NCBI GenBank assembly: GCA_021323735.1
Contig: JAJPKM010000005.1
Location: 1-36,414 of the forward strand
DNA: 36,414 nt
Direction of reading: 5' to 3'
Source: Gammaproteobacteria bacterium
Lineage (GTDB): Bacteria > Pseudomonadota > Gammaproteobacteria > Steroidobacterales > Steroidobacteraceae
Positions 19,961 through 33,609 of the stretch are shown piece by piece. Each line of letters opens with the position of its first letter. Position 1 is the first letter of the stretch. The notes under the pieces are model-generated. The model searched no databases. It was not told where the DNA came from and was given only the letters and a program-made list of their open reading frames with translations. The translations under genes were made by a program, and so were the position numbers.

Positions 19961-20142
19961 ATGGGCGCAGGGCGCACGCCACGCCAACACCGCGTCGCAG
20001 CAGTCGGTCGGCCCTTGCCGTTATGTTGACTACCGCACATACGGCAATCGCCTATAGGCCTAGTCTGGCACATCCGGTGAACCTCGCGGTTCCTGACTGG
20101 AGGCCATGGATTCTTGAGGCTTCTCCTAGGGAAAGGAACATT

Positions 20143-21870
20143 ATGAAACTCGAGCGCTCATCACCGGTAACGGCGTCGAGAAAGTCGCCCAGCGGGATCC
20201 TTGGCTTTGACGAGATCACCGGCGGCGGCCTGCCGCGGGGACGCACCACGTTGGTCGCGGGTGGTCCGGGCTGCGGTAAAACCATCTTCGCGCTGCAATT
20301 CCTGGTTAATGGCGCCAAGGAATTCGGCGAGCCGGGGATATTCGTCGCCTTCGAGGAGGAATCGAGACGCATCACGGCCAATGCGGAGAGCTTCGGCTGG
20401 CCGCTTACTCAATTGCGGCGAAGCAGGCTGCTGTTCGTCGATGCCCAACCCAAGCTCGATCTCACGCAGTCGGGAGACTTCGATCTGTGCGGAATGCTGG
20501 CCGGCCTGGCACTTCAAGCGAAGCAGATCAAGGCGCGGCGAATCGTCTTCGATGCGTTGGACATGGTATTGGCGCTGCTCCCCGACCTTGCGGCCCGCCG
20601 GCGCGAAGTCTATCGGCTCCATGACTGGCTCATGGCACACGATCTGACCTGCATCTTTACCCTCAAATCGGGCGTCGGCGAACCTACGTTTACCTCGCCG
20701 CAGCCCTACGGATTCATGCAGTTCATGGTGGACTGCTCGGTGATTCTGTCCCACAGCGTCGTGCACGGCGTATCGCAGCGCAACCTGCGCGTGCAGAAAT
20801 ACCGCGGCTCGAGTTTCGATGAAAACGAGTCGCCGTTCGTGATCGGTGACACGGGATTCAATGTGGCCATCTCGCGAATCCTGGGCCAGCTGGACGCCAA
20901 GGTAACGCAGGAGCGGGTCAGCAGTGGCGTCAAGCGGCTCGATACCATGTTGGGCGGCGGCTATTACCGCGCCGCGACGGTGTTGATCACGGGCGTTCCG
21001 GGAACGGCCAAGACCACGCTGAGCGGAGCCTTCGCCGAAGCCGCTTGCCGCCGTGGCGAGCGTACGATGATCGTGAGTTTCGACTCGGACGGCAGCGAGG
21101 TCATCAGGAACCTAGCCTCGGTGGGAATAAAGCTGGAGCGCTTCGCCAAGAGCCGGCTGCTGCGCGTGGTCTCGGCGCGCACCATCACCGGCAGCGCAGA
21201 GGCATGCCTGGTGCGTATCAAGGCGCTCGCGGTGGCGCACCGGGCTCGGTGCCTGGTGATCGATCCGGTATCGTCACTCTCGAATTCCGGCAGCGAAGTC
21301 CGGGCCCATGGTGTCGCGGAACGGCTGATCGATTGGTCGAAGTCGGATCGAATCACTCTGGTGTGCACCAGTTTGCTCAATGAAATCGAGGGCCAGGCGG
21401 TTGGGGACTCGGCGCTGCACATCTCGACGCTGGCCGATACTTGGATTCATCTGAACTATCTGGTGCAGGCCGGGGAGCGCAACCGCGGCATGTCCATCAT
21501 CAAGTCGCGCGGCACGGCGCATTCGAATCAAGTGCGTGAACTGATCTTGAGCAATGCCGGTGTCACGCTGGCCGACATCTTTACCGCCGGCGGGGAAGTG
21601 CTGATGGGCACCATGCGCTGGGAGAAGGAAAGCGCCGAGCGTGTCGCGAAAGAGGTCTCCGAGGTCGCCGGAAAGCTCAAACTCGTTACGCTCGATGCCC
21701 AGCAGGCCGAATTGCAAGTACGGCTCAAGGCCGTTCAGACCGAGCTGGTGGCGAAGCAGGTGGAAAAAACGCTGCTCGCCAGCACCACCGCCAGCCGCAA
21801 GGCGGTCACTTTGCGAGGCAGCGTACGGATGCGCGAACTGCGCGGTGGCGACGCACCGAGGCGCAAGTGA
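20143..21870 (+). CDS. kaiC: KaiC family circadian-clock-type ATPase/kinase
   Basis: This 575-residue protein has two RecA-like halves. Half 1 has Walker A GGPGCGKT (Lys46), the catalytic FEEE pair (71-72) and Walker B-like RRIVFDAL. Half 2 has GVPGTAKTT (Lys290) and CLVIDPVSSL, but the FEE position reads SFDSDG (313-316), so its catalytic glutamates are lost. HIST (425-429 region) matches the Ser431/Thr432 phosphosite of cyanobacterial KaiC. A helical, probably coiled C-terminal tail follows. AAGGA sits 6 bases before the ATG at 20143; the longer frame is not supported. Its stop overlaps kaiB. Non-cyanobacterial KaiC proteins act as timers or stress regulators. Confidence 0.92.
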   Translation: MKLERSSPVTASRKSPSGILGFDEITGGGLPRGRTTLVAGGPGCGKTIFALQFLVNGAKEFGEPGIFVAFEEESRRITANAESFGWPLTQLRRSRLLFVDAQPKLDLTQSGDFDLCGMLAGLALQAKQIKARRIVFDALDMVLALLPDLAARRREVYRLHDWLMAHDLTCIFTLKSGVGEPTFTSPQPYGFMQFMVDCSVILSHSVVHGVSQRNLRVQKYRGSSFDENESPFVIGDTGFNVAISRILGQLDAKVTQERVSSGVKRLDTMLGGGYYRAATVLITGVPGTAKTTLSGAFAEAACRRGERTMIVSFDSDGSEVIRNLASVGIKLERFAKSRLLRVVSARTITGSAEACLVRIKALAVAHRARCLVIDPVSSLSNSGSEVRAHGVAERLIDWSKSDRITLVCTSLLNEIEGQAVGDSALHISTLADTWIHLNYLVQAGERNRGMSIIKSRGTAHSNQVRELILSNAGVTLADIFTAGGEVLMGTMRWEKESAERVAKEVSEVAGKLKLVTLDAQQAELQVRLKAVQTELVAKQVEKTLLASTTASRKAVTLRGSVRMRELRGGDAPRRK

Positions 21871-22166
21871 CCGCTGCAAGCCGACAGGCCATGTACAAAT
21901 TCCGGCTATTTGTGGCCGCCGATACGCTGAATTCCGCCCAAGCGGCGAGCAATTTGCATGCGCTATGCAAGGCGCACCTGGCGGGCCGTCATGAAATCGA
22001 AGTCGTCGATGTGTTCAAGGACCCGAAGCGCGCGCTGGCGGAAGGCGTTCGCATGACACCGACTCTGCTCAAGCTCTCGCCGGGGCCCGTGAGAAGGATC
22101 GTCGGTACTCTCGCGGATGTTGCCCGCGTCATGCAAACCCTGGGACTCGACGCCGAAGCTGCATGA
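21867..22166 (+). CDS. kaiB: KaiB family protein
   Basis: This 99-residue protein has a thioredoxin-like KaiB fold: YKFRLFVAADTLNSAQAASNL, then IEVVDVFKDPKRALAEGV, RMTPTLLKLSPGPVRRIVGTL. In cyanobacteria KaiB binds phosphorylated KaiC and recruits output proteins after a fold switch. The GTG at 21867 overlaps the kaiC TGA (GTGA); the ATG at 21891 is the alternative and would start right at the fold. It ends overlapping the next gene (ATGA), so all three are translated together. No kaiA is present, as usual outside cyanobacteria. Confidence 0.93.
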   Translation: MTAASRQAMYKFRLFVAADTLNSAQAASNLHALCKAHLAGRHEIEVVDVFKDPKRALAEGVRMTPTLLKLSPGPVRRIVGTLADVARVMQTLGLDAEAA

Positions 22167-24931
22167 GCGCCGAACCGCCACCGCCGGGCGACGATGCCGA
22201 CGAAATATCGGTGGTCATCAAGGCGCTTCGCGCGGCGGACCTGCGGCTGGAGGAGTTGACGGCCGGCGAAATAGACACGGTGTCGGATCGCGAGGGGCGC
22301 TCATTCCTGCTGCAGCGGGCGCAGAACCAGTTGCGCGACACCGAGGCGGCCAAGCAGGCGGCGATCTTGAACGCGCTTCCGGCATATATCGCCGTACTGG
22401 ACGTGGAGGGGCAGGTCTTGTCGGTGAATGAGATCTGGGAGCGATCGACGGCCGGCAACCCGCTGCATGGTCCTGGCTACGGGGTGGGAAAGAATTATCT
22501 GGAGATGTGCGACATGCAGCGCGGGCGGGATTCAACCGACGCCCATCGCGCCGCGACCGGCATTCGGTCCGTGCTGGCCGGCGAGCAGCGTAGCTTTTCA
22601 ATGGAATATCCCTGCGCTCTGCCCACCGAGCGCCGCTGGTTTCTGCTGACCACTACACCATTGGCCGCCGATCGCCTGCGGGGCGCCGTCATCATGCACG
22701 TGGATATCACGGATCAAAAGCGTGGCGAAGCCGCGCTGCAGCGCTTTGCCGCTGCGATGGATGCCACCGCCGACGCGATATTCTTGGTCGACCGATCCAG
22801 CATGCGCTATATCCACGTGAATGAGGCGGCATGCCGTATGCAAGGCCAGACTCGCGAGTGGCTCCTGGCATCGCCACCCGAGAAGCTGCTGGGTACCTCG
22901 TCCAAGGAGCTTGCAGAGACCTACGACCGCTTGATCGACAGCGGTATCGATGCGAAGCCGATGGAGATATTGCGGCCGCGCGGCGACCGTTCGATGGCAT
23001 GGATCGAGCTCAGACGGCATGCTCAGCGGACCGGCGATAGCTGGACCATCGTGACCATGGTGCGCGACGTAACCGATCGCAAGGAGGCTGAAACCCGCAT
23101 CATCCACCTCAATCGGGTGCACGCCATGTTGAGCGGGATCAATACCCTGATCGTGCGCGTGCGCGACCGCGGTGAATTGTTCAGCGAGGCCTGTCGCATC
23201 GCCACGGACGAGGGTGGCTTCCGGATGATTTGGATCGGCTTGGTCGACCGGTCGCTGCACAAAATAACTCCCGTGGCATCGGTGGGCATGCGTGACGAAT
23301 TCCTGGAGGAGATTCGCGAACGATTTACGCTCGACGAGGGGTCGCCCATGGGCAACACCATGACCGCGCGGGCGGTCAGAGAGGCCAGGCCGTTGGTTGC
23401 CAACAATTTGGAATTCGACACCAACGTCGTGTTTCACGAGCAGCATTTCGCCGCGGGCATCCGATCGATGGCCGTGTTGCCGCTGATCATCGGCGGCGTG
23501 GTGGTGGGCGTCGTGGCCTTGTTTGCCCACGAACTGGAATTCTTTCACGAGGGCGAGATGAAGCTCTTGACCGAGCTCACCGGCGATATTGCCTTCGCGA
23601 TCGATCACATCGAGAAGCAGGAGCGGTTGGACTACCTGGCTTACTACGATGTTCTCACCGGACTTGCCAACCGGGCGTTGTTTCTCGAGCGCACGGCGCA
23701 ATACATCCGCAGCGCCGCGACCGGCCGCCGCAAGCTGGCCTTGTTTCTGATCGATCTGGAGCGATTCAAGAATATCAACGACAGTCTCGGCCGTCCCGCG
23801 GGCGATCTGCTGCTGAAGCAAGTGGCGGCGTGGCTCACGCAGATCGTGGGAGACGCAAACCTTCTGGCTCGAGTGGACGCGGACCATTTTGCCGTGGTGG
23901 TGCCGGGCATCAAGCATGCGCGCGATGTCATGCGCTTGCTCAAAAAGGCCATGCTGGCATTTCTGTCCCACCCGTTTCAGCTCAACGAGGCGGTGTTTCG
24001 CATCGCGGCGAAGGTAGGCGCGGCCGTCTGTCCGGATGATGCGACTGATGCCGACACGTTGTTTCGAAACGCAGAATCGGCGCTCAAGAAGGCGAAAACC
24101 ACCGGAGATAAGTTTCTCTTCTACTCCCAGAACATGTCGGTGTCGGTGGCGGCCCGTGTCACGCTGGAAAACCAACTGAGGCAGGCGCTCGAACGACGCG
24201 AATTCGTGCTTTTTTTCCAACCGAAGATGAATCTGCTCAGCGGCCAAGTCACGGGCGCGGAGGCGTTGTTGCGGTGGAATGACCCCCTGACCGGATTGGT
24301 CGCCCCAAGCCGGATCATTCCCATCCTGGAGGAAACCGGCTTGATGCATGACGTCGGTCGATGGGCGCTCAACGAAGCGGTCGCTACCTACCGCCGCTGG
24401 CGAGCCGCGGGTCTTCCGGCGGTCTGCATTGCCGTCAATGTGTCGCCCATGCAACTTAGGAATCGCGGTTTCCTCACCGAGATCCGCGAGGCGATTGCCG
24501 ATGATCCCGTGGCGGCGGCGGGCCTTGAACTTGAAATCACCGAGAGTTTGATCATGGAGGACGTCCGCCTCAGCATCGGCAGTCTGCGCGCCATTCGCGC
24601 ATTGGGGATCAAAATCGCCATTGACGACTTTGGCACGGGCTTCTCCTCGCTGAGCTATCTGGCCCGGCTTCCCGTGCACACCCTGAAAATCGACCGCTCG
24701 TTTGTCATCGACATGGGGGCCGGACCCGAGGGGCTGGCGCTGGTTCAGACCATCATCAATCTAGCGCACTCCATGAAGCTCAATGTGGTCGCGGAAGGGG
24801 TGGAAACGGAGGAGCAATCGCGCCTTTTGCGCTTGCTCAATTGCGATGAAATTCAGGGCTACTGGTTTGGGCATCCCGTACCCTGCGATGTCTTTGAGGC
24901 CAAGTATTTGAGTCATAAGGCCTTGCCGTGA
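22163..24931 (+). CDS. PAS-PAS-GAF-GGDEF-EAL c-di-GMP phosphodiesterase, kai-linked
   Basis: This 922-residue cytoplasmic protein has approximate domains PAS (65-175), PAS (185-305), GAF (320-460), GGDEF (465-635) and EAL (655-905). The GGDEF signature is degenerate (V-D-A-D-H-F at 571-576), so cyclase activity is unlikely. The EAL domain keeps EALLRW (700-702), NVSPMQL, LEITES, IDDFGTGFSSL, KIDRSFV, GVETEEQ and IQGYWFG, so it should hydrolyse c-di-GMP. The ATG overlaps the kaiB stop. The tight coupling suggests the Kai pair controls, or is read out by, c-di-GMP turnover; this is inference. It ends 19 bases into the convergent crotonase gene. Confidence 0.92.
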   Translation: MSAEPPPPGDDADEISVVIKALRAADLRLEELTAGEIDTVSDREGRSFLLQRAQNQLRDTEAAKQAAILNALPAYIAVLDVEGQVLSVNEIWERSTAGNPLHGPGYGVGKNYLEMCDMQRGRDSTDAHRAATGIRSVLAGEQRSFSMEYPCALPTERRWFLLTTTPLAADRLRGAVIMHVDITDQKRGEAALQRFAAAMDATADAIFLVDRSSMRYIHVNEAACRMQGQTREWLLASPPEKLLGTSSKELAETYDRLIDSGIDAKPMEILRPRGDRSMAWIELRRHAQRTGDSWTIVTMVRDVTDRKEAETRIIHLNRVHAMLSGINTLIVRVRDRGELFSEACRIATDEGGFRMIWIGLVDRSLHKITPVASVGMRDEFLEEIRERFTLDEGSPMGNTMTARAVREARPLVANNLEFDTNVVFHEQHFAAGIRSMAVLPLIIGGVVVGVVALFAHELEFFHEGEMKLLTELTGDIAFAIDHIEKQERLDYLAYYDVLTGLANRALFLERTAQYIRSAATGRRKLALFLIDLERFKNINDSLGRPAGDLLLKQVAAWLTQIVGDANLLARVDADHFAVVVPGIKHARDVMRLLKKAMLAFLSHPFQLNEAVFRIAAKVGAAVCPDDATDADTLFRNAESALKKAKTTGDKFLFYSQNMSVSVAARVTLENQLRQALERREFVLFFQPKMNLLSGQVTGAEALLRWNDPLTGLVAPSRIIPILEETGLMHDVGRWALNEAVATYRRWRAAGLPAVCIAVNVSPMQLRNRGFLTEIREAIADDPVAAAGLELEITESLIMEDVRLSIGSLRAIRALGIKIAIDDFGTGFSSLSYLARLPVHTLKIDRSFVIDMGAGPEGLALVQTIINLAHSMKLNVVAEGVETEEQSRLLRLLNCDEIQGYWFGHPVPCDVFEAKYLSHKALP

Positions 24932-27294: not shown

Positions 27295-27362
27295 TATCAA
27301 TGCTAGCGGCGGGTCGCTCGTCGCGCTATTATGCGGATATTCGATCGTTTGGAGGGTCGGTC

Positions 27363-27584
27363 ATGGCGCAATTGATCGTGCGGGATTTGCCGGCGGAGTT
27401 GGTGCTGGCGCTGAAGCGGCGGGCGGCCAAACGGAATCGCAGTGCCGAGCAGGAACATCGAGAAATTTTGAAGGCGGCGCTCATGGGGACGAAGCGGCGG
27501 CCGTTGGCGGCAGTGCTGGCGGCCATTCCAAACGTAGGGGAGGACAGCGACTTTCGGCGTGAGCAGAGCGATCGTCGGGGCTGA
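27363..27584 (+). CDS. fitA: FitA-like ribbon-helix-helix antitoxin
   Basis: This 73-residue protein begins with MAQLIVRDLPAELVLALKRR, then AAKRNRSAEQEHREIL, the ribbon-helix-helix layout of FitA/VapB antitoxins. The polar C-terminal part (NVGEDSDFRREQSDRRG) is the probable toxin-binding region. GGAGGG lies about 8 bases before the ATG. TATTAT at 27327-27332 could be a -10 box with no clear -35. It ends two bases before the toxin start. It should repress its own operon and neutralise the PIN toxin. Confidence 0.85.
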   Translation: MAQLIVRDLPAELVLALKRRAAKRNRSAEQEHREILKAALMGTKRRPLAAVLAAIPNVGEDSDFRREQSDRRG

Positions 27585-27586
27585 CC

Positions 27587-28003
27587 GTGTATCTCATCGA
27601 TACCGATGTGATCAGCGAAATTCGCAAGGGCGAGAAAGCCAATTCCGGCGTGCGGGAGTTCTTCGAAAGCACGGTCCGTGATGGGAAGGCTCTTTATTTA
27701 TCGGTGGTGTCAATCGGTGAGCTGCGACAAGGAGTTGAGCGTATCCGGCACCGCGGGGATGAGGAACAGGCCCATCTCCTGGAACGTTGGCTCAAGCACG
27801 TGTCGAGCGCTTATGCCGATGCGATCTTGCCCATTGATGAGGAGACCGCGCATGTGTGGGGCCGCTTAAGGGTTCCGAATCCGGAAAATCCGTTGGATAA
27901 GCAGATTGCGGCCACTGCCCTCATTCACGATTTAACGGTTGTGACGCGCAATACGGAACATTTCGCGCCCACAGGGGTGAGGCTCAAAAATCCGTTTGCA
28001 TGA
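27587..28003 (+). CDS. fitB: FitB/VapC-type PIN-domain toxin
   Basis: This 138-residue PIN nuclease starts at GTG, directly after fitA. Acidic residues fit the family: LIDTDVISEIRKG near the N-terminus, SIGELRQGVE in the middle and LDKQIAATALIHDL then VVTRNTEHF near the end. Such toxins cut RNA with Mg2+. Its stop is only 8 bases from the end of the convergent SagB-type gene. No mobile element flanks the pair. The activity is a family inference; the target RNA is unknown. Confidence 0.85.
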   Translation: MYLIDTDVISEIRKGEKANSGVREFFESTVRDGKALYLSVVSIGELRQGVERIRHRGDEEQAHLLERWLKHVSSAYADAILPIDEETAHVWGRLRVPNPENPLDKQIAATALIHDLTVVTRNTEHFAPTGVRLKNPFA

Positions 28004-28010
28004 CTTTTTG

Positions 28011-29102
28011 TCAGTTGTCCTCAGCGGTCGCCCGCTCGTGCGGGTGATCAGCAACCAAGCCGACTCCTGCCACATAAAGAACGGATTCGGAAATTCCGTC
28101 CAATCCCAAGTCCTTTTCGATCACTGAATCCTTGAGCGCAGCCGTGCTGAAGGGAGCCAGTCCCAGCCTCGTTGCGCAGAGGCAAAAGGTCTGACAAAGA
28201 TGACCGGTCTCGAGCAGGACAACCCGATAGGCCCGCGCTCTACCGTACTTCCACATGGTCCTGGCGAAAACCGCTGTCATGATGAACAGCGCTGCTGCCT
28301 TCGCAGGATACGATTGATCCGCGCAATACGTGCTTGCCATGCGCGGAGTGGCTCTGCCAGGGAGCCGTGCCAGGCGATTGTCCCTGGCCTGGTAGCGATA
28401 CATGCCCCTCTCGAGCCCCTCCACCCTGAGCGCCATCAGATAGACCTCGCCGGGGTGTCTTGCGCCGCCCGATGGGCTTGTCTTGTATGGAAGTTTTCCA
28501 AATGCATCGCTTTGGAAGTAACCCTGGACACCCCACGTTGTTTGCAGCAGCTTTGAGATGTTCCCCAGAGACACCTCTCCTCTCGCAAACTCTCCGTGCG
28601 TCCTCCTGGCGTGCAGTGTCTCGAAGAACGTGTCGCCGGCTATCTCATGCGGCGGTAGCCGGACCGTATCGGCACCCCTGATCGTTTTGAACTGGGGCGG
28701 GGCTCGAGTTGATGGAAGCGTCTGCATTTTCTTTTCGATGGGCCAATCGCGAGGAACGTACGGGGTGTCCTTGGTCATGAAGTGAAATCCGCCTTCCGGG
28801 AGCCAGGGTCTCCATGACGAGCAAACCCGTTCATCTCGTTTCCATTCGGCGGATCCGTGCTCGAGCAGGAGTTGGGCATCGATGAGCTGCAGCAGCGCCA
28901 TTGCTACGCTCCTGCGGCTGTAGGAGCGGAACTCAACGAGCGCATCCCGCATCGTCCGCGGGGTGAAGAAGAAACGAATCAAGTCGAGGGTGGCCGGATG
29001 CGTTGAGAACGTCCTTCCGGTGAGAAAGTTGGCGATTCGCAGTCTTCCGCGCTCCCAGTAGGCAATCTGGCAGGACGCGCTCTTCAGCCTAAGCGACCGC
29101 AT
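28011..29102 (-). CDS. SagB-type nitroreductase-fold dehydrogenase with N-terminal RRE-like region
   Basis: This 363-residue protein has a C-terminal FMN nitroreductase-type SagB/ThcOx domain: FFETLHARRTHGEF, PSGGARHPGEVYLMAL, VLLETGHLCQTFCLCATRLGL. SagB enzymes oxidise azolines in RiPP biosynthesis. Its first 100 residues (ANFLTGRTFSTHPATLDLIR, LLQLIDAQLLLEHG) look like a PqqD/RRE-type winged helix, which in RiPP systems grips a leader peptide. CGGAG lies about 9 bases before the ATG. A 70-residue peptide gene lies 35 bases upstream. No YcaO cyclase is visible, so this may be another RiPP-like oxidation or a stand-alone redox enzyme. Confidence 0.8.
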   Translation of the reverse strand: MRSLRLKSASCQIAYWERGRLRIANFLTGRTFSTHPATLDLIRFFFTPRTMRDALVEFRSYSRRSVAMALLQLIDAQLLLEHGSAEWKRDERVCSSWRPWLPEGGFHFMTKDTPYVPRDWPIEKKMQTLPSTRAPPQFKTIRGADTVRLPPHEIAGDTFFETLHARRTHGEFARGEVSLGNISKLLQTTWGVQGYFQSDAFGKLPYKTSPSGGARHPGEVYLMALRVEGLERGMYRYQARDNRLARLPGRATPRMASTYCADQSYPAKAAALFIMTAVFARTMWKYGRARAYRVVLLETGHLCQTFCLCATRLGLAPFSTAALKDSVIEKDLGLDGISESVLYVAGVGLVADHPHERATAEDN

Positions 29103-29137
29103 CCAGCGAGCTCCGCAACGACAATCGCCACTAGATT

Positions 29138-29350
29138 CTAGAGCCTATACTCATGCATCAATATCTTCTCCAGTCGAGTGTGGAGTTCCTTCAATCCTGT
29201 TTCCAATTTCATCCGTGTTATGGTTCCGCGTTGATTTTGCCCTTGCAGCCTCGCCAACTCGACTCGCGCTCTCCGTGTCAGCTCGCGGACAGTTTTCAAC
29301 GACCGGGCGTTGACCGGCAGCTTTGTCGTGCCTGTTCTCTTCGATGCCAT
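29138..29350 (-). CDS. Small basic peptide upstream of the SagB-type gene
   Basis: This 70-residue peptide starts at ATG 29350 with GGGAG about 9 bases upstream; the longer frame from 29386 is not needed. It is Lys/Arg/Leu-rich and helical (KTVRELTRRARVELARLQ, then LKELHTRLEKILMHEYRL) with no cysteine and few serines. It sits 38 bases after the kinase stop and 35 bases before the SagB-type start, all on one strand. The position suggests a RiPP precursor or a kinase-linked helical regulator. I do not recognise a family, and the azoline-type core residues expected for SagB are lacking. Confidence 0.65.
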   Translation of the reverse strand: MASKRTGTTKLPVNARSLKTVRELTRRARVELARLQGQNQRGTITRMKLETGLKELHTRLEKILMHEYRL

Positions 29351-29388
29351 GGTAACTATCTCCCTTCTTGTTTTAAGGACAATCAAGA

Positions 29389-32019
29389 CTACGAGCTTAA
29401 TTTCCGAGCCCGGACATCTGCGTGCTCCGGCTGCGCTTCCGCCTTCAACCTCATCTTGCTCAGCAAAGCCTGGAATCTCGGGTCGCCGTGCAGGTTTCGA
29501 AGCAGAGGGTCGGTCTTGAGGTAGAGCATACCGTGCTCATGTGTATCATAGGCGTGATCGAGCCATCGGAAGGCATCGTCAATTTCGCCGCGGTATGCGT
29601 GGACCGAGGCGACTCCGTATGCGTCCCTCGATGCAAATTTATTCGTCAACGAATGCAGTGCGGCGTTGGACTCGGTGCGCTGTCCCAGCGCGAAGTAGGC
29701 CATCGCGAGGCCGCGCAGTCTGTACTGCTCGTTGGGCTCCTGTTGCATCGCAGCGAGCGCCGCGGCGAATTTACCAAGGCACAGGAAAGCGATGCCCACG
29801 GAGCTGTTGATCCTGTTGAACTCCGGATGCAGATGAAGCAGCTTTAGGCGCGACTGCAGGCATTGCTCGAGCCGGTTGGCGGCGCAGAGTGCGACGCCGA
29901 GCGAGTCGAGGATGTTCGGGTCGAGCGGATTGTGCGCGACTTCATCCTGGTACAACTCCACGGCCCGGTCGACCTCCCCGAACGTGATTGCGAGGTCACC
30001 GAAAGCGCTTGGCAGCAAATCAAAGCGAGGGTCGAGCTCGCGCAAGCGTTCCGTGTCCGCCCTGGCCGCGGCCCAATTCCACGCAACGGTCCCGTCGAAA
30101 CCTGCGCGCGTGTAGTACGCCCAGGGGATGTTGGGCTCGAGCCGGATGGCCCGCTCCAGTGCATCGAGCACTCGCCGGCTCTTCTCCTTCGATGGCAATC
30201 CTTCAAGGATTTCCTCGCTGAGGTATGCGCTCCCGAGGCGCGCCCACGCCAGCGCGTAGTCGGGACTGATATCGATCGCTTGCTGGTAGAGCTGGGCGGA
30301 TTTTTCCACATCCTGCAGGGTCCTCCGTGCCTTGAAGTAATTTCCCTCCAGAACGAGGTTGTACGCGCGGATATCGGGGGCGTGGTTGCCCGGCTGACTG
30401 ATGTTCCGCAATACGACGCGCAGGGCCTGGGAAACCTGCTCGGCAATGTCGTCCTGTACTTTGAAAACCTCGACGAGGGCGCGATTATTATAGGTGTGCG
30501 ACCAGAGCGACACTCCATCCGACGCGCGAATCAGCTGCGCGCTGATGCGCAGCTGCCGGCCATCCTTGCGAACGCTGCCCTCCAGCAAATGCGTCACAGC
30601 CAGCTGCCGCGCGATTGAGCGCACGTCTTCGTTCTTACCCTTGAATTCGAACGACGAAGTGCGCGCGATGACCTTCAGGTCCGTGCCGTGCACAAGGTGG
30701 TCTATCAGTTCCTCGGACAGCCCGTCCGAGAAATATTCCTGTTTCGGGTCCCCGCTCATGTTCACGAATGGAAGCACTGCAATCGAATCCAGCGGGGGGT
30801 TGGAGACGGAGGTACCGTTGGTGGGTGCATCGGCAGTAGGGGTGGCGGCAAGGGGGGCGGCTTGCCGAGCGCTCGAGGCTCCTTCGGCCACGACAGCGTG
30901 CCGGGACAACCAACCCCTGTCGAGGGCGAGGTAGGCCAGTCCCGCAGCCGCGATCGCAACAATGGCCGCAGCAACTATAAGGGCGACCGGCCGAGTCCGG
31001 GGCGCAGTGTGTGAAGCGAGTCCGGCGAGCAGCGTTTCCACCGTGCCAGTCCGTGTCTCGCGGTCAAAGGCAAGCGCCTGGGCGAGCGCTGCGTTCTGTT
31101 CCCGTGACAGCCCCAGAAGCGGCGGCATTTGGGCAGCATTTTCCCGAGCTTCAAGCGCGGTAAGTTCGCCGAATGGCCGCTCTCCGCAGAGTATCTCGTA
31201 GATCAGGCAGGCGAAGGAGTAGATGTCATCGCGTCGGTCCGCTTCCTTCCCCTCGAGCATCTCGCAGCTGGCGTAGACCGGGGTGAGCGCGCGCGCTCCG
31301 ATAGAAGCGTGCAGCAGTGGACCGCGCGACACTCGCGCAATGCCAAAGTCGAGCAGTTTGGTCCTCCCTGAGACCGTGAGAAACACATTCCCAGGCTTTA
31401 GGTCGCTGTGGACCACGTTGTGATCGTGCGCATTGCTCAACGCCGCGCCCACATCCTCGATAATCGGCCAGGCGTGGCTAAAGGGTATGCCGCGGCCAAA
31501 TTCCTCGTCGAGCAGCATGTTAAGCGACTTGCCCTCGAGGTACTCCATCAGCACGTACAGCCTTTGGCCGTCGACGTTCACCGAATGCATATCGACGATG
31601 TTCTGATGGCTGAGCTTGCGCGTTCTACTGACTTCTTCGCGCAGCAGCATGAGGGCCGCGGGTTGTAATTCCTCTCTCAAGACCTTGATGGCAAATCTCT
31701 CGCCGGGCACTTGCTCGTCGGTGGCCAGGTACACAACTCCCATCCCCCCTTCACCGATCTCGCGCTCAATGCGGTAGCGGTCGCCGAGTAGCTCACCGAC
31801 CGCCAGCCGCGGAGACCCCTTCCGGGACGGACCACCTTGCGCGCAGGCCGACGCCTGTCGAGCGACTTCAGTCCCGCGGGTCGAGACCTCGCTGGGGAGG
31901 GATACGCGGGGAATTTCTTCTGCGGTCATAGGGTCTGCAATGCGCGCCCTGATAGGTGGGGGAGCATGCGCCCACTCGACCAGGGAGAGCAAATCCGATC
32001 GACAAAGATCGGCCGGCAT
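29389..32019 (-). CDS. Transmembrane Ser/Thr protein kinase with TolB-like and TPR domains
   Basis: This protein of about 876 residues has a kinase domain (about 82-330) with GEGGMGVVYLATD, Lys112, VVHSDLKPGN (Asp206) and LLDFGIARV. HSD instead of HRD makes it a non-RD kinase. One membrane helix (ALIVAAAIVAIAAAGLAYLAL) follows, then a TolB-like region (SIAVLPFVNMSGDPKQEYFS), and TPR-type helices to the C-terminus (for example ISPDYALAWARLGSAYL). The outer part probably senses protein partners in the periplasm. The start is uncertain: ATG 32019 or 31929. The divergent region carries 11-bp repeats, and the nearby FHA regulator is a natural phosphothreonine reader. Confidence 0.88.
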   Translation of the reverse strand: MPADLCRSDLLSLVEWAHAPPPIRARIADPMTAEEIPRVSLPSEVSTRGTEVARQASACAQGGPSRKGSPRLAVGELLGDRYRIEREIGEGGMGVVYLATDEQVPGERFAIKVLREELQPAALMLLREEVSRTRKLSHQNIVDMHSVNVDGQRLYVLMEYLEGKSLNMLLDEEFGRGIPFSHAWPIIEDVGAALSNAHDHNVVHSDLKPGNVFLTVSGRTKLLDFGIARVSRGPLLHASIGARALTPVYASCEMLEGKEADRRDDIYSFACLIYEILCGERPFGELTALEARENAAQMPPLLGLSREQNAALAQALAFDRETRTGTVETLLAGLASHTAPRTRPVALIVAAAIVAIAAAGLAYLALDRGWLSRHAVVAEGASSARQAAPLAATPTADAPTNGTSVSNPPLDSIAVLPFVNMSGDPKQEYFSDGLSEELIDHLVHGTDLKVIARTSSFEFKGKNEDVRSIARQLAVTHLLEGSVRKDGRQLRISAQLIRASDGVSLWSHTYNNRALVEVFKVQDDIAEQVSQALRVVLRNISQPGNHAPDIRAYNLVLEGNYFKARRTLQDVEKSAQLYQQAIDISPDYALAWARLGSAYLSEEILEGLPSKEKSRRVLDALERAIRLEPNIPWAYYTRAGFDGTVAWNWAAARADTERLRELDPRFDLLPSAFGDLAITFGEVDRAVELYQDEVAHNPLDPNILDSLGVALCAANRLEQCLQSRLKLLHLHPEFNRINSSVGIAFLCLGKFAAALAAMQQEPNEQYRLRGLAMAYFALGQRTESNAALHSLTNKFASRDAYGVASVHAYRGEIDDAFRWLDHAYDTHEHGMLYLKTDPLLRNLHGDPRFQALLSKMRLKAEAQPEHADVRARKLSS

Positions 32020-32045
32020 GGATCCGGCCTGAGATCTTTACGACT

Positions 32046-32078
32046 CCTAAGAACTTCCTAAGGACTCCCTAAGGATCT
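32046..32078. promoter_or_regulatory. Triple 11-bp direct repeat (probable PhoB-type regulator site)
   Basis: CCTAAGAACTT, CCTAAGGACTC and CCTAAGGATCT follow one another with exact 11-bp spacing between the divergent kinase and urcA-type genes. PhoB/OmpR and SARP winged-helix regulators bind such face-phased repeats. The last repeat lies 17 bases before a TAGTTA (32091-32096) that could be a -10 element for urcA, so the repeats would cover the -35 region. Confidence 0.6.
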
Positions 32079-32135
32079 CCCGTCGCCTGGTAGTTAACGT
32101 TGTAGCCGAGACTTGAAGCCCGCAAGCGATGAAGC
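32068..32135 (+). repeat. Leader repeat, copy A
   Basis: This stretch is similar to 32562-32628. Shared parts include AAGGATC, AGTTAACG, TGT, CCGAG, TTGAAG and CCGCAAG in the same order and spacing (one base gap). It precedes the UrcA gene. It probably arose by duplication of a promoter/leader. Confidence 0.6.
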
Positions 32136-32188
32136 TGGGTTCGCAAGTCGTGAAGCGACCACTAACCATTTTCCTGCAGGAGACAACC

Positions 32189-32551
32189 ATGTACTTGGAC
32201 ACCAACACCAACAGCAAAATTTTCAGCGCTTGCACCGCGACAGTAATGAGCTTGACGTGCGCATTCGTTGTCGCCATTGCGTTCATACCTAAGGAGACCG
32301 TCAAATTCCAGGATCTAAATATCGACAGCCCCGCCGGCGCGGCAGCTCTCTACCAGCGCCTTCATGCCGCGGCGCAGCATGTCTGCTTCGCGGGTTGGGA
32401 TAGGGCCCCCGCAAAAGTGCAGCGAGCCGAGGCCTGCGCCATCGAAGCGGAATCTCGTGCGGTGGGCCAATTGAATGTTACCGCACTGACCGCCTACTAC
32501 CAGGTGAAAGGCCGCCCGGACGCGACGCTCACCGCGAGCTTGGCGAAGTGA
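32189..32551 (+). CDS. UrcA-family secreted protein
   Basis: This 120-residue protein has an N-terminal hydrophobic segment (SACTATVMSLTCAFVVAIAF) and the UrcA pattern KFQDLNIDSPAGAAALYQRLH, AAAQHVCFAGW and CAIEAESRAVGQL, with two cysteines that may pair. AGGAG lies about 6 bases before the ATG at 32189; the frame from 32129 is an extension. UrcA proteins are common in sphingomonads, Steroidobacter relatives and xanthomonads; their role is unknown. It follows the 11-bp repeats, so it is a likely target of the FHA regulator. Confidence 0.82.
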   Translation: MYLDTNTNSKIFSACTATVMSLTCAFVVAIAFIPKETVKFQDLNIDSPAGAAALYQRLHAAAQHVCFAGWDRAPAKVQRAEACAIEAESRAVGQLNVTALTAYYQVKGRPDATLTASLAK

Positions 32552-32561
32552 TTGAGAATTC

Positions 32562-32628
32562 CCGAAGGATCCGAGCCGCTCGGAAGTTAACGCTGTTCCC
32601 GAGTTTTGAAGACCGCAAGTCGCGCAGC
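32562..32628 (+). repeat. Leader repeat, copy B
   Basis: This is a diverged copy of 32068-32135, located between the UrcA gene and the 52-residue ORF. It keeps AAGGATC, AAGTTAACG and the TTGAAG-CCGCAAG block. It also keeps a weaker 11-bp repeat pair (ATTGAGAATTC then CCGAAGGATCC at 32551-32572). Confidence 0.55.
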
Positions 32629-32658
32629 GTCAACACATCTTGTCAGCGAGGCCCGAAC

Positions 32659-32817
32659 ATGAAAACTAGAATTCAATTTTTGACGGCTTGGATTCTCGTC
32701 AGAGTTCAAACCGTCACCGCGAACTTGGATCCCGAGATCCTGCAGTGGCCGGGAGGCATGATCATTGCGCTGCTTCTTTGGCCTTACTTAGTCGCCCGAC
32801 CGGCCACCAATCCCTAG
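32659..32817 (+). CDS. Small membrane peptide ORF
   Basis: This 52-residue ORF begins at ATG 32659 with GAGG about 9 bases upstream. It has two hydrophobic stretches (IQFLTAWILVRVQTV and GGMIIALLLWPYLVA) and ends PATNP. It lies behind leader copy B, whose similarity to the urcA leader supports expression. Its stop overlaps the next 11-bp repeat. It could be a degenerate paralogue or a true small membrane protein. I do not recognise a family. Confidence 0.5.
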   Translation: MKTRIQFLTAWILVRVQTVTANLDPEILQWPGGMIIALLLWPYLVARPATNP

Positions 32818-32834
32818 GAACTTCCTATGAAGAT
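32813..32834 (+). promoter_or_regulatory. 11-bp direct repeat pair before the FHA regulator gene
   Basis: CCTAGGAACTT and CCTATGAAGAT repeat with exact 11-bp spacing about 130 bases before the regulator start. They match the repeats at 32046-32078, which suggests autoregulation. I find no good -10 at the expected distance. Confidence 0.5.
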
Positions 32835-32964
32835 GTGAATATTCGCTCGGCAAGGAGTATGTTCGTTCGTCTGCGGCGCCTTCGTAGCCCGTTTGCGGCA
32901 GTTGCGATAGCCTACCGTCGGATACAGCGTCCAGTCGCATTTGCAAACGCACACGAGCGGGATC

Positions 32965-33609
32965 ATGAAGCTCGAGTTCAAAGATTGCATTTTCGATACA
33001 GCATCGCGGGAGCTATTCCGCGGGGGCGCGATCGTGCCGATTGAACCCAAGATGTACTTGCTGCTTGAGGTCCTCATCCAGCGTCGACCCGCGGTCGTCA
33101 CGAACGTCGAGCTGGATGAGATATTGTGGCCCGAAGTTTATGTGGAACGCGGCAGCTTGACCCGGCTGGTGTCAGAGCTGCGAAGTGTGCTCGGCGACTC
33201 GCCGCGCGAATCGCGCATTATCCGCACGGTTTACAAGACCGGCTATTCTTTCGCTGCCAATGTAGTCGGAAATGATGGCGCGATCAAACGCGTTTCCAAG
33301 TTATTTCTGCTGTGGAACGAACGCATGATGCATCTCGAAGAGGGCGAGAACATCCTGGGGCGAGGAGAGGAGTGCACGTTGGTGATCGATGCGACGACGG
33401 TTTCGCGGCGCCACGCGCGAATTACGGTTTCACGCGACGCCGCGAGTATCGAAGATCTTGAAAGTACCAACGGCACTTTTGTCAACAAGAGCCCCGCAAA
33501 AGTGCCGATCGCGCTCAAAGACGGCGATGAAGTTGCTCTCGGGACTGCCGCCATGCGTTTCCGCAGGAGCGACCGGTCTGCACAGACAGAGCGAAGCGTG
33601 GAGGCTTAA
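32965..33609 (+). CDS. PhoB-type winged-helix DNA-binding protein with FHA domain
   Basis: This 214-residue protein has an N-terminal Trans_reg_C winged helix (about 1-100: DTASRELFRGGAIVPIEPKM, LTRLVSELRSVLGDS, IIRTVYKTGYSF) and a C-terminal FHA domain (about 110-200: ILGRGEECTLVIDATTVSRR, HARITV, LESTNGTFVNK). There is no receiver domain, so it is not a response regulator. FHA domains bind phosphothreonine, which links it to the Ser/Thr kinase encoded nearby. GCGGGATC precedes the ATG; a TTG at 32941 is less likely. It probably controls the 11-bp repeat sites around it. That wiring is inference. Confidence 0.88.
   Translation: MKLEFKDCIFDTASRELFRGGAIVPIEPKMYLLLEVLIQRRPAVVTNVELDEILWPEVYVERGSLTRLVSELRSVLGDSPRESRIIRTVYKTGYSFAANVVGNDGAIKRVSKLFLLWNERMMHLEEGENILGRGEECTLVIDATTVSRRHARITVSRDAASIEDLESTNGTFVNKSPAKVPIALKDGDEVALGTAAMRFRRSDRSAQTERSVEA

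Follow-up and report, generated by a model that had tools for sequence, protein, structure and literature searches.

The DNA analyzed here, referred to below as the window, is a stretch of 36,414 nucleotides that carries kaiC, kaiB and a third gene encoding a PAS-PAS-GAF-GGDEF-EAL protein (Table 1). The coordinates of the open reading frames confirmed the 4-base overlaps between consecutive genes (GTGA and ATGA) reported in the initial annotation. For kaiC, the ATG at 20143 was preferred to a start at 20023, as AAAGGA is found five bases upstream of it and the alignment of the nearest relative begins there. The flanking genes, a ketoacyl-ACP synthase III-like gene upstream and an enoyl-CoA hydratase gene downstream, are both read from the other strand, and the operon is therefore limited to three genes. 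The GC content of the window is 56-64% in 2-kb steps; it lies on contig 19 of a host genome of 4.19 Mb on 58 contigs. A scan for sigma-70 promoters found 0 against 1.5 expected, an Rfam search gave no match and a tRNA scan found none. On the 3' side of the operon, a gene pair for a FitA-like antitoxin and a PIN-domain toxin is present at positions 27345-28003; it is followed at 28014-33606 by closely spaced genes for a member of the nitroreductase family, for a Ser/Thr kinase that contains TPR repeats and for an FHA protein whose DNA-binding domain is of the response-regulator type, which perhaps form a separate signalling cluster.

Table 1. Features of the kaiC-kaiB-EAL operon, with positions in the window
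Feature	Position	Strand	Description
kaiC	20143..21870	+	575 aa; two RecA-type domains and a C-terminal extension, MRELRGGD near the end
KaiC CI Glu71-Glu72	20353..20358	+	catalytic Glu pair, in 78/79 aligned KaiC rows, 1 gap
KaiC CII position of the catalytic Glu pair	21082..21087	+	Asp314-Ser315; D in 78, S in 72, T in 6 of 79 rows
KaiC Ser428-Thr429	21424..21429	+	aligned with RsKaiC phosphosites S413/S414
GTGA overlap, kaiC stop/kaiB start	21867..21870	+	from the ORF list
kaiB	21867..22166	+	99 aa, GTG start
ATGA overlap, kaiB stop/third-gene start	22163..22166	+	from the ORF list
PAS-PAS-GAF-GGDEF-EAL gene	22163..24931	+	ATG start, 922 aa, predicted c-di-GMP phosphodiesterase
N-terminal partner element	22190..22378	+	about 60 residues (about residues 10-72), predicted helix-hairpin-helix; nearly only in kaiBC partners
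Degenerate GGDEF site	23876..23890	+	DADHF
EAL domain	24170..24877	+	E700, N759, E791, D821, D822, K842, E878, Q898

KaiC matched Pfam PF06745 in two stretches (E 8e-88) and KaiB matched PF07689 (E 7e-20). In NCBIfam, KaiC scored above the cut-off of PRK09302 and failed that of TIGR02655 (circ_KaiC; 277 vs 546 bits), while KaiB failed both KaiB equivalogs (59 vs 145 bits for TIGR02654); by this yardstick, the two are therefore not cyanobacterial-type clock proteins. Residues of KaiC were compared over an alignment of 79 rows, into which the sequences of two loci with an interrupted kaiC (L061 and L118) never entered. The Walker A lysines of both RecA domains are conserved (K46 in 77 of 79 rows with two gaps, K290 in 79 of 79). 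The catalytic Glu pair, listed among the motifs of all cyanobacterial KaiC groups (PMC5520375), is absent from CII of the window KaiC, where Asp-Ser is found instead. SFEE is retained in CII by the KaiC proteins of loci L130-L132, and the second KaiC of the window genome, a paralog, has SFDE at this pair. The change from the Glu pair to Asp-Ser is, in the alignment, a clade trait of the window KaiC, of which no description was found in the literature searched, most subscription journals being outside it; it marks a clade whose second ATPase ring may work unlike the solved KaiC compared here.

Ser428 and Thr429 align with the Ser-Ser pair of RsKaiC, the KaiC of Rhodobacter sphaeroides, named S413/S414 (PMC10076222) and represented by Glu-Glu in the 8FWI chain. 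The first position is Ser in 78 of 79 rows and the second is Thr or Ser in 61 and Ala or Lys in 16. Given this last substitution and a CII domain without the Glu pair, a cyanobacterial-like phosphorylation cycle is uncertain. Near the C-terminus, the motif LRG[AG]D following an acidic or basic residue is present in 63 of the 75 rows of sufficient length, and the C-terminal extension aligned with the coiled coil of RsKaiC. In three loci, the kaiC frame is broken by a stop or a frame change (L061:5899-7731, L118:5713-7746 and L115:5920-7709), either through decay or through sequencing error.

In the third protein, Pfam delineated PAS_4 (residues 69-187), PAS (194-303), GAF_2 (334-481), GGDEF (493-649) and EAL (670-905, E 2e-70). 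The eight EAL residues listed in Table 1, which we take to be those of the active site, are intact in 47 of 47 domains (the window, 38 third genes and 8 REC-EAL genes); over the 14 EAL motif positions inspected, A701 differs in 2 of the 47 and E881 in one. Of 41 GGDEF domains, 30 have a degenerate site and 11 a canonical one. In the window the site reads DADHF, and an active diguanylate cyclase was ruled out on that ground. With its EAL residues intact and its GGDEF site degenerate, the third protein is predicted to be a c-di-GMP phosphodiesterase and not a cyclase, in line with the initial annotation, which had proposed as output a phosphodiesterase carrying two PAS and one GAF domains.

To survey gene order, genome contigs were scanned with an alignment of five KaiC proteins, and the best 80 of 185 confirmed candidate loci were retained. 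The order kaiC-kaiB-GGDEF-EAL, pointed out in the initial annotation of the single locus, recurs across phyla in 38 of these best 80 of 185 loci; 36 are complete and two run off the contig, and two others among the 38 have an interrupted kaiC. The 38 include L103, from a genome of the same genus (G018), with identities of 66, 58 and 56-57% for KaiC, KaiB and the EAL protein. This recurrence places the order beyond chance and excludes a strain-specific accident. In the remaining loci of the 80, the third gene encodes a histidine kinase followed by a REC-EAL gene (8 loci), a histidine kinase and REC-EAL in one protein (2), a histidine kinase without EAL in the available DNA (7) or a histidine kinase at the contig end (1); others were classed as histidine kinase open (2), GGDEF open (4), PAS open (11) or as having no partner (7). 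Among the last seven, the contigs of L049, L081 and L113 lack kaiB and L083 ends 120 bases past kaiB, whilst L052, L055 and L105 extend for 0.7 to 5.7 kb past kaiB without an element-bearing partner (see below).

EAL forms the end of the chain in 48 of the 55 resolved loci (38+8+2+7), the other seven having a histidine kinase without EAL in the available DNA. In 10 loci, REC-EAL is encoded downstream of the histidine kinase partner or fused to it. The kinases of L076, L080 and L120 are of the hybrid type, containing REC and Hpt domains, and the REC-EAL gene follows them. In the proteins encoded at L091:7736-13402 and L106:7832-13345, one chain of about 1850 residues joins the N-terminal element described below to several PAS domains, HisKA, HATPase, REC, Hpt, REC and EAL; judged by their domains, these are complete phosphorelays onto their own putative EAL phosphodiesterase output. 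On a quick LG+G4 tree of KaiC (88 rows, the cut-off L110 and L113 being left out), parsimony required 9 changes of the EAL/histidine kinase label over 57 labelled rows, and outputs have been swapped repeatedly. Combined, these results support the view that the predicted output converges on EAL, loci with a histidine kinase partner included. In two loci, the kaiC-kaiB operon is immediately preceded by a GGDEF gene and a diverged gene resembling kaiC (L060:639-3888 and L082:2486-5864), as if a second Kai-like/c-di-GMP pair had been attached.

The third proteins have in common, regardless of an EAL- or a histidine kinase-type output, the first PAS domain and an element preceding it. The first scan placed this element at the start of the third protein for 72 loci among the best 80 of 185, to which a profile added L120; of the 76 loci in which kaiB is followed by 200 bases or more, 73 have the element, with EAL and histidine kinase outputs alike. 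Its mean identity is 54% between EAL- and histidine kinase-type partners, close to the 53% of the first PAS domain, and 58% within the EAL type. An AF2 model of window residues 1-189, based on 67 sequences, had block means of at least 90 for residues 11-90, and consists of a helix (8-32), two strands (39-41 and 47-49) and a helix (51-71) that runs into the PAS fold. Residues L22, G35, D38 and G45 are invariant in 67 of 67 rows, and the core of the hairpin reads G-x-[VI]-D-[AT]. A Pfam search of the element gave no credible match, the best being DUF7393 at E 0.18.

The distribution of the element was analyzed with a profile, A3, built from the window element together with 16 of the 72 sequences. 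In 60 relatives, A3 gave five matches in four genomes: the window, the kai locus of G018 (both of these being rows of A3), a gene of G001 beside kaiB, a gene of G031 after kaiC-kaiB and a solo EAL protein of G018. In a draw of 299 genomes from the phylum, where about 20 candidates per genome were scored, three matched, namely the window's own genome and two with weak, chance-like matches; in a comparable phylum draw, a KaiC relative at E ≤1e-20 was found in 55 of 299 genomes with four candidates per genome scored. We then turned to 42 genomes traced from the 80 loci, and hence picked for having a kai locus, 11 of which had contributed rows to A3. All 42 matched, with 45 matches in total and a single match in 39 genomes. 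The match lies no more than 600 bp from the end of kaiB in 41 of the 42, the exception being the genome of L055, whose sole match is weak; for the 31 genomes outside A3, the count is 30. The extra matches fall in the next gene of the same locus (L091), in a second kaiC-kaiB operon (G361) and in a solo EAL protein (G390).

A less biased test used 300 genomes from the order of Massilia sp. Root418 (G366), presumably the Burkholderiales. Five A3 matches were obtained, four strong (G366, G543, G648 and G649) and a fifth weak. The four strong matches are in the four genomes with a KaiC of at least 57% identity, and each is beside that KaiC; G366 and G543 had given rows to A3, G648 and G649 had not. 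No A3 match was detected in the 20 further genomes of this draw with a KaiC of at most 40% identity. Since only part of the candidates in each genome was scored here as in the phylum draw (about 20 for A3, four for KaiC), absences in the two draws are less firm. A generic PAS cap spread over many sensors, which we had expected, did not appear in these genome searches, and weak element matches in L207, L208, L209 and L212 were dismissed by eye as chance.

Three loci lack the element despite at least 0.7 kb after kaiB (L052, L055 and L105); the genome of L105 has it beside another kaiB, and that of L055 has no credible copy. Two solo EAL proteins (G018:C53 and G390:C99), with no kaiB in the 13-14 kb analyzed, carry diverged copies; the invariant Gly is kept in the former and lost in the latter, which are too few cases to argue from. 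In G001, kaiB and the EAL gene (L205:6360-9496) adjoin cta/heme A-like genes with no kaiC in the 14 kb analyzed, and a kaiC-kaiB pair without the EAL gene is found on another contig (L035:6642-8692). With the operon split in this way, there is a hint of KaiB as the more direct partner of the EAL protein.

Related elements are found in other KaiC clades. The window genome has a second kaiC-kaiB pair (G000:C14, L033:4757-8801), with a KaiC 48% identical to the first. The next gene encodes a PAS-GAF-PAS protein that starts with a related element, and the gene flanking this pair on its opposite side is Crp-like by eye. At L036:5864-9313 (G031), the product of the gene after kaiC-kaiB combines the element with a PAS-like region and an HTH domain of the Crp type; it is possibly a directly Kai-controlled transcription factor. 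A profile of the elements of the L033, L037 and L036 partners (A5) matched in the 60 relatives its three source sequences and the window (E 8e-4), with no others, and a profile (A6) of the version found in one histidine kinase after kaiC-kaiB-kaiB in G020 matched its own source alone. As these matches are the sources, plus the window for A5, the searches show absence elsewhere and not independent presence. In the 299 phylum genomes, A6 gave eight independent matches, all eight within 1 kb of a KaiC relative from the phylum draw.

An A6-type element was found in 14 of the 17 loci with a distant KaiC besides L039 (L136 and L200 look like one genome) and was absent from L134, L203 and L204; no kaiB was seen in L203, and in L134 and L204 kaiC-kaiB is present with no element detected. 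L134 (G197) has a GGDEF-EAL frame directly upstream of kaiC and a GGDEF frame downstream, maybe another wiring to c-di-GMP. When profiles were compared, A3 scored 41.5 with A5 and 37.1 with A7 (the 14 rows of the A6-type element), against maxima of 18.9 and 16.1 in 200 column shuffles each; A5 and A7 matched weakly (probability 35). A7 in 18 genomes gave one match, in G204, itself a source of A7. Across these loci, the output behind the element may be EAL, a histidine kinase, a histidine kinase with REC-EAL, a Crp-type HTH domain (L036) or GGDEF (L201). The case for a kai-linked element rests on the independent matches, those of A3 in the 42 kai-bearing genomes and of A6 in the eight phylum genomes.

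We give a probability of roughly 0.55 to the interpretation that KaiB and KaiC, probably with no KaiA, form an ATPase switch to which a c-di-GMP phosphodiesterase is directly wired, the phosphodiesterase reading the switch through its N-terminal element. KaiC, with intact ATPase motifs in CI and a modified CII, would change its phosphorylation or nucleotide state with the ATP/ADP level of the cell or with time, and this change would alter the binding of KaiB. A surface of KaiC, KaiB or the KaiBC complex would be read by the element of about 60 residues, and the signal would pass through PAS/GAF to the EAL domain, which would hydrolyse c-di-GMP, the degenerate GGDEF being a regulatory domain at most. 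RsKaiBC is reported to be an hourglass driven by the ATP-to-ADP ratio (PMC10076222); by homology, the window KaiBC would be an ATP/ADP-driven hourglass-like switch as well. The element is a front end that stays constant while outputs are exchanged behind it, and it is nearly absent elsewhere in the genomes tested; the best explanation is that it makes the contact with KaiC, with KaiB or with the complex of the two. More tentatively, at just short of an even bet, it may be a general docking tag of non-cyanobacterial KaiBC timers, such that any output placed behind it is Kai-controlled; in the window clade this output would be mainly c-di-GMP breakdown.

The linkage might also stem from descent. 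The element and the first PAS domain would then have been retained from the first half of an ancestral partner gene, or would serve as a cap for PAS dimerisation; outputs would have been exchanged behind them by fusion, with the element making no contact with the Kai proteins. Such helices entering a PAS domain resemble dimerising signal helices, and both the straight run of helix 51-71 into the PAS fold in the AF2 model and the similar conservation of the first PAS domain and the element fit this explanation. We regard it as unlikely, since 39 of 42 genomes have one match despite 23 to 155 first-look candidates each, and since related elements front the partners of other KaiC clades.

A reversed flow of information, from the PAS/GAF sensors through the element to KaiC, would make the EAL protein an input by which the Kai switch is set, and c-di-GMP turnover would form a branch alongside. 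The two PAS and one GAF domains of the partner would suit a sensor, and room for another input to KaiC is possible given that kaiA is reported from cyanobacteria only (PMC6627678); yet the output end varies while the Kai-linked end is constant, the pattern expected of an effector behind an adaptor, which makes the reversal improbable. It seems more improbable still that the genes form a co-transcribed stress operon whose products act separately. A stress-response role is cited for Legionella KaiC2 (PMC5520375), but separate action fits poorly with a Kai-linked element, with repeated exchanges of the output after which EAL mostly remains the end point, and with the kaiB-EAL pair found apart from kaiC in G001.

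Models of the DosP, GepA and DibA type matched the GGDEF-EAL half of the third protein, with the EAL residues intact, all of them under curated cut-offs. We know of no kai linkage as a feature of these phosphodiesterases. A small, recognisable and nearly kai-exclusive element would predict which proteins are Kai outputs, and it points to c-di-GMP hydrolysis as the common end point in mostly beta- and gammaproteobacterial loci. In the literature searched, to which most subscription journals and all supplements were external, no description of the element was found; its genome-wide specificity and the convergence of histidine kinase loci on REC-EAL were likewise not found described.

The arrangement of the genes is known. 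The initial annotation had presented the linkage of kaiBC to a GGDEF/EAL gene as a departure from the usual PAS histidine kinase partners; it was already described in 2011, in a paper on Ramlibacter tataouinensis reporting histidine kinase or GGDEF/EAL genes directly downstream of non-cyanobacterial kaiC-kaiB (PMC3164672). The first kaiC context of that paper corresponds to the window, with kaiC and kaiB clustered outside cyanobacteria and a GGDEF/EAL or histidine kinase gene immediately 3'. Its section on kai contexts presents, solely for the histidine kinases of kaiB-less loci, a module at the N-terminus (RtaNt) that is compared there with SasA and KaiB, and makes no mention of the window element, of the CII change or of wiring from a histidine kinase to REC-EAL. 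The shared N-terminal element of the kaiBC partners, on which the initial annotation is silent and which we regard as the central point, is the apparently new part, in that we did not find it described.

Among solved structures, the closest KaiC is RsKaiC (PDB 8DBA, 8FWI and 8FWJ; E 6e-103 over residues 13-554), which belongs to a system of KaiB and KaiC alone (PMC10076222). RsKaiC and the window KaiC share a C-terminal extension as well as a pair of neighbouring phosphorylatable residues in CII; they differ in CII, with SFEE in RsKaiC and SFDS in the window clade, and in that the partner gene in the window encodes an EAL protein. The cyanobacterial output kinase SasA, like the partner proposed here, reads the state of the Kai proteins and relays it, in that case as SasA-RpaA (PMC13001216). 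The N-terminal domain of SasA is KaiB-like (PMC3164672), whereas the element of the window has about 60 residues, is predicted to form a helix-hairpin-helix and fronts EAL, histidine kinase and HTH outputs.
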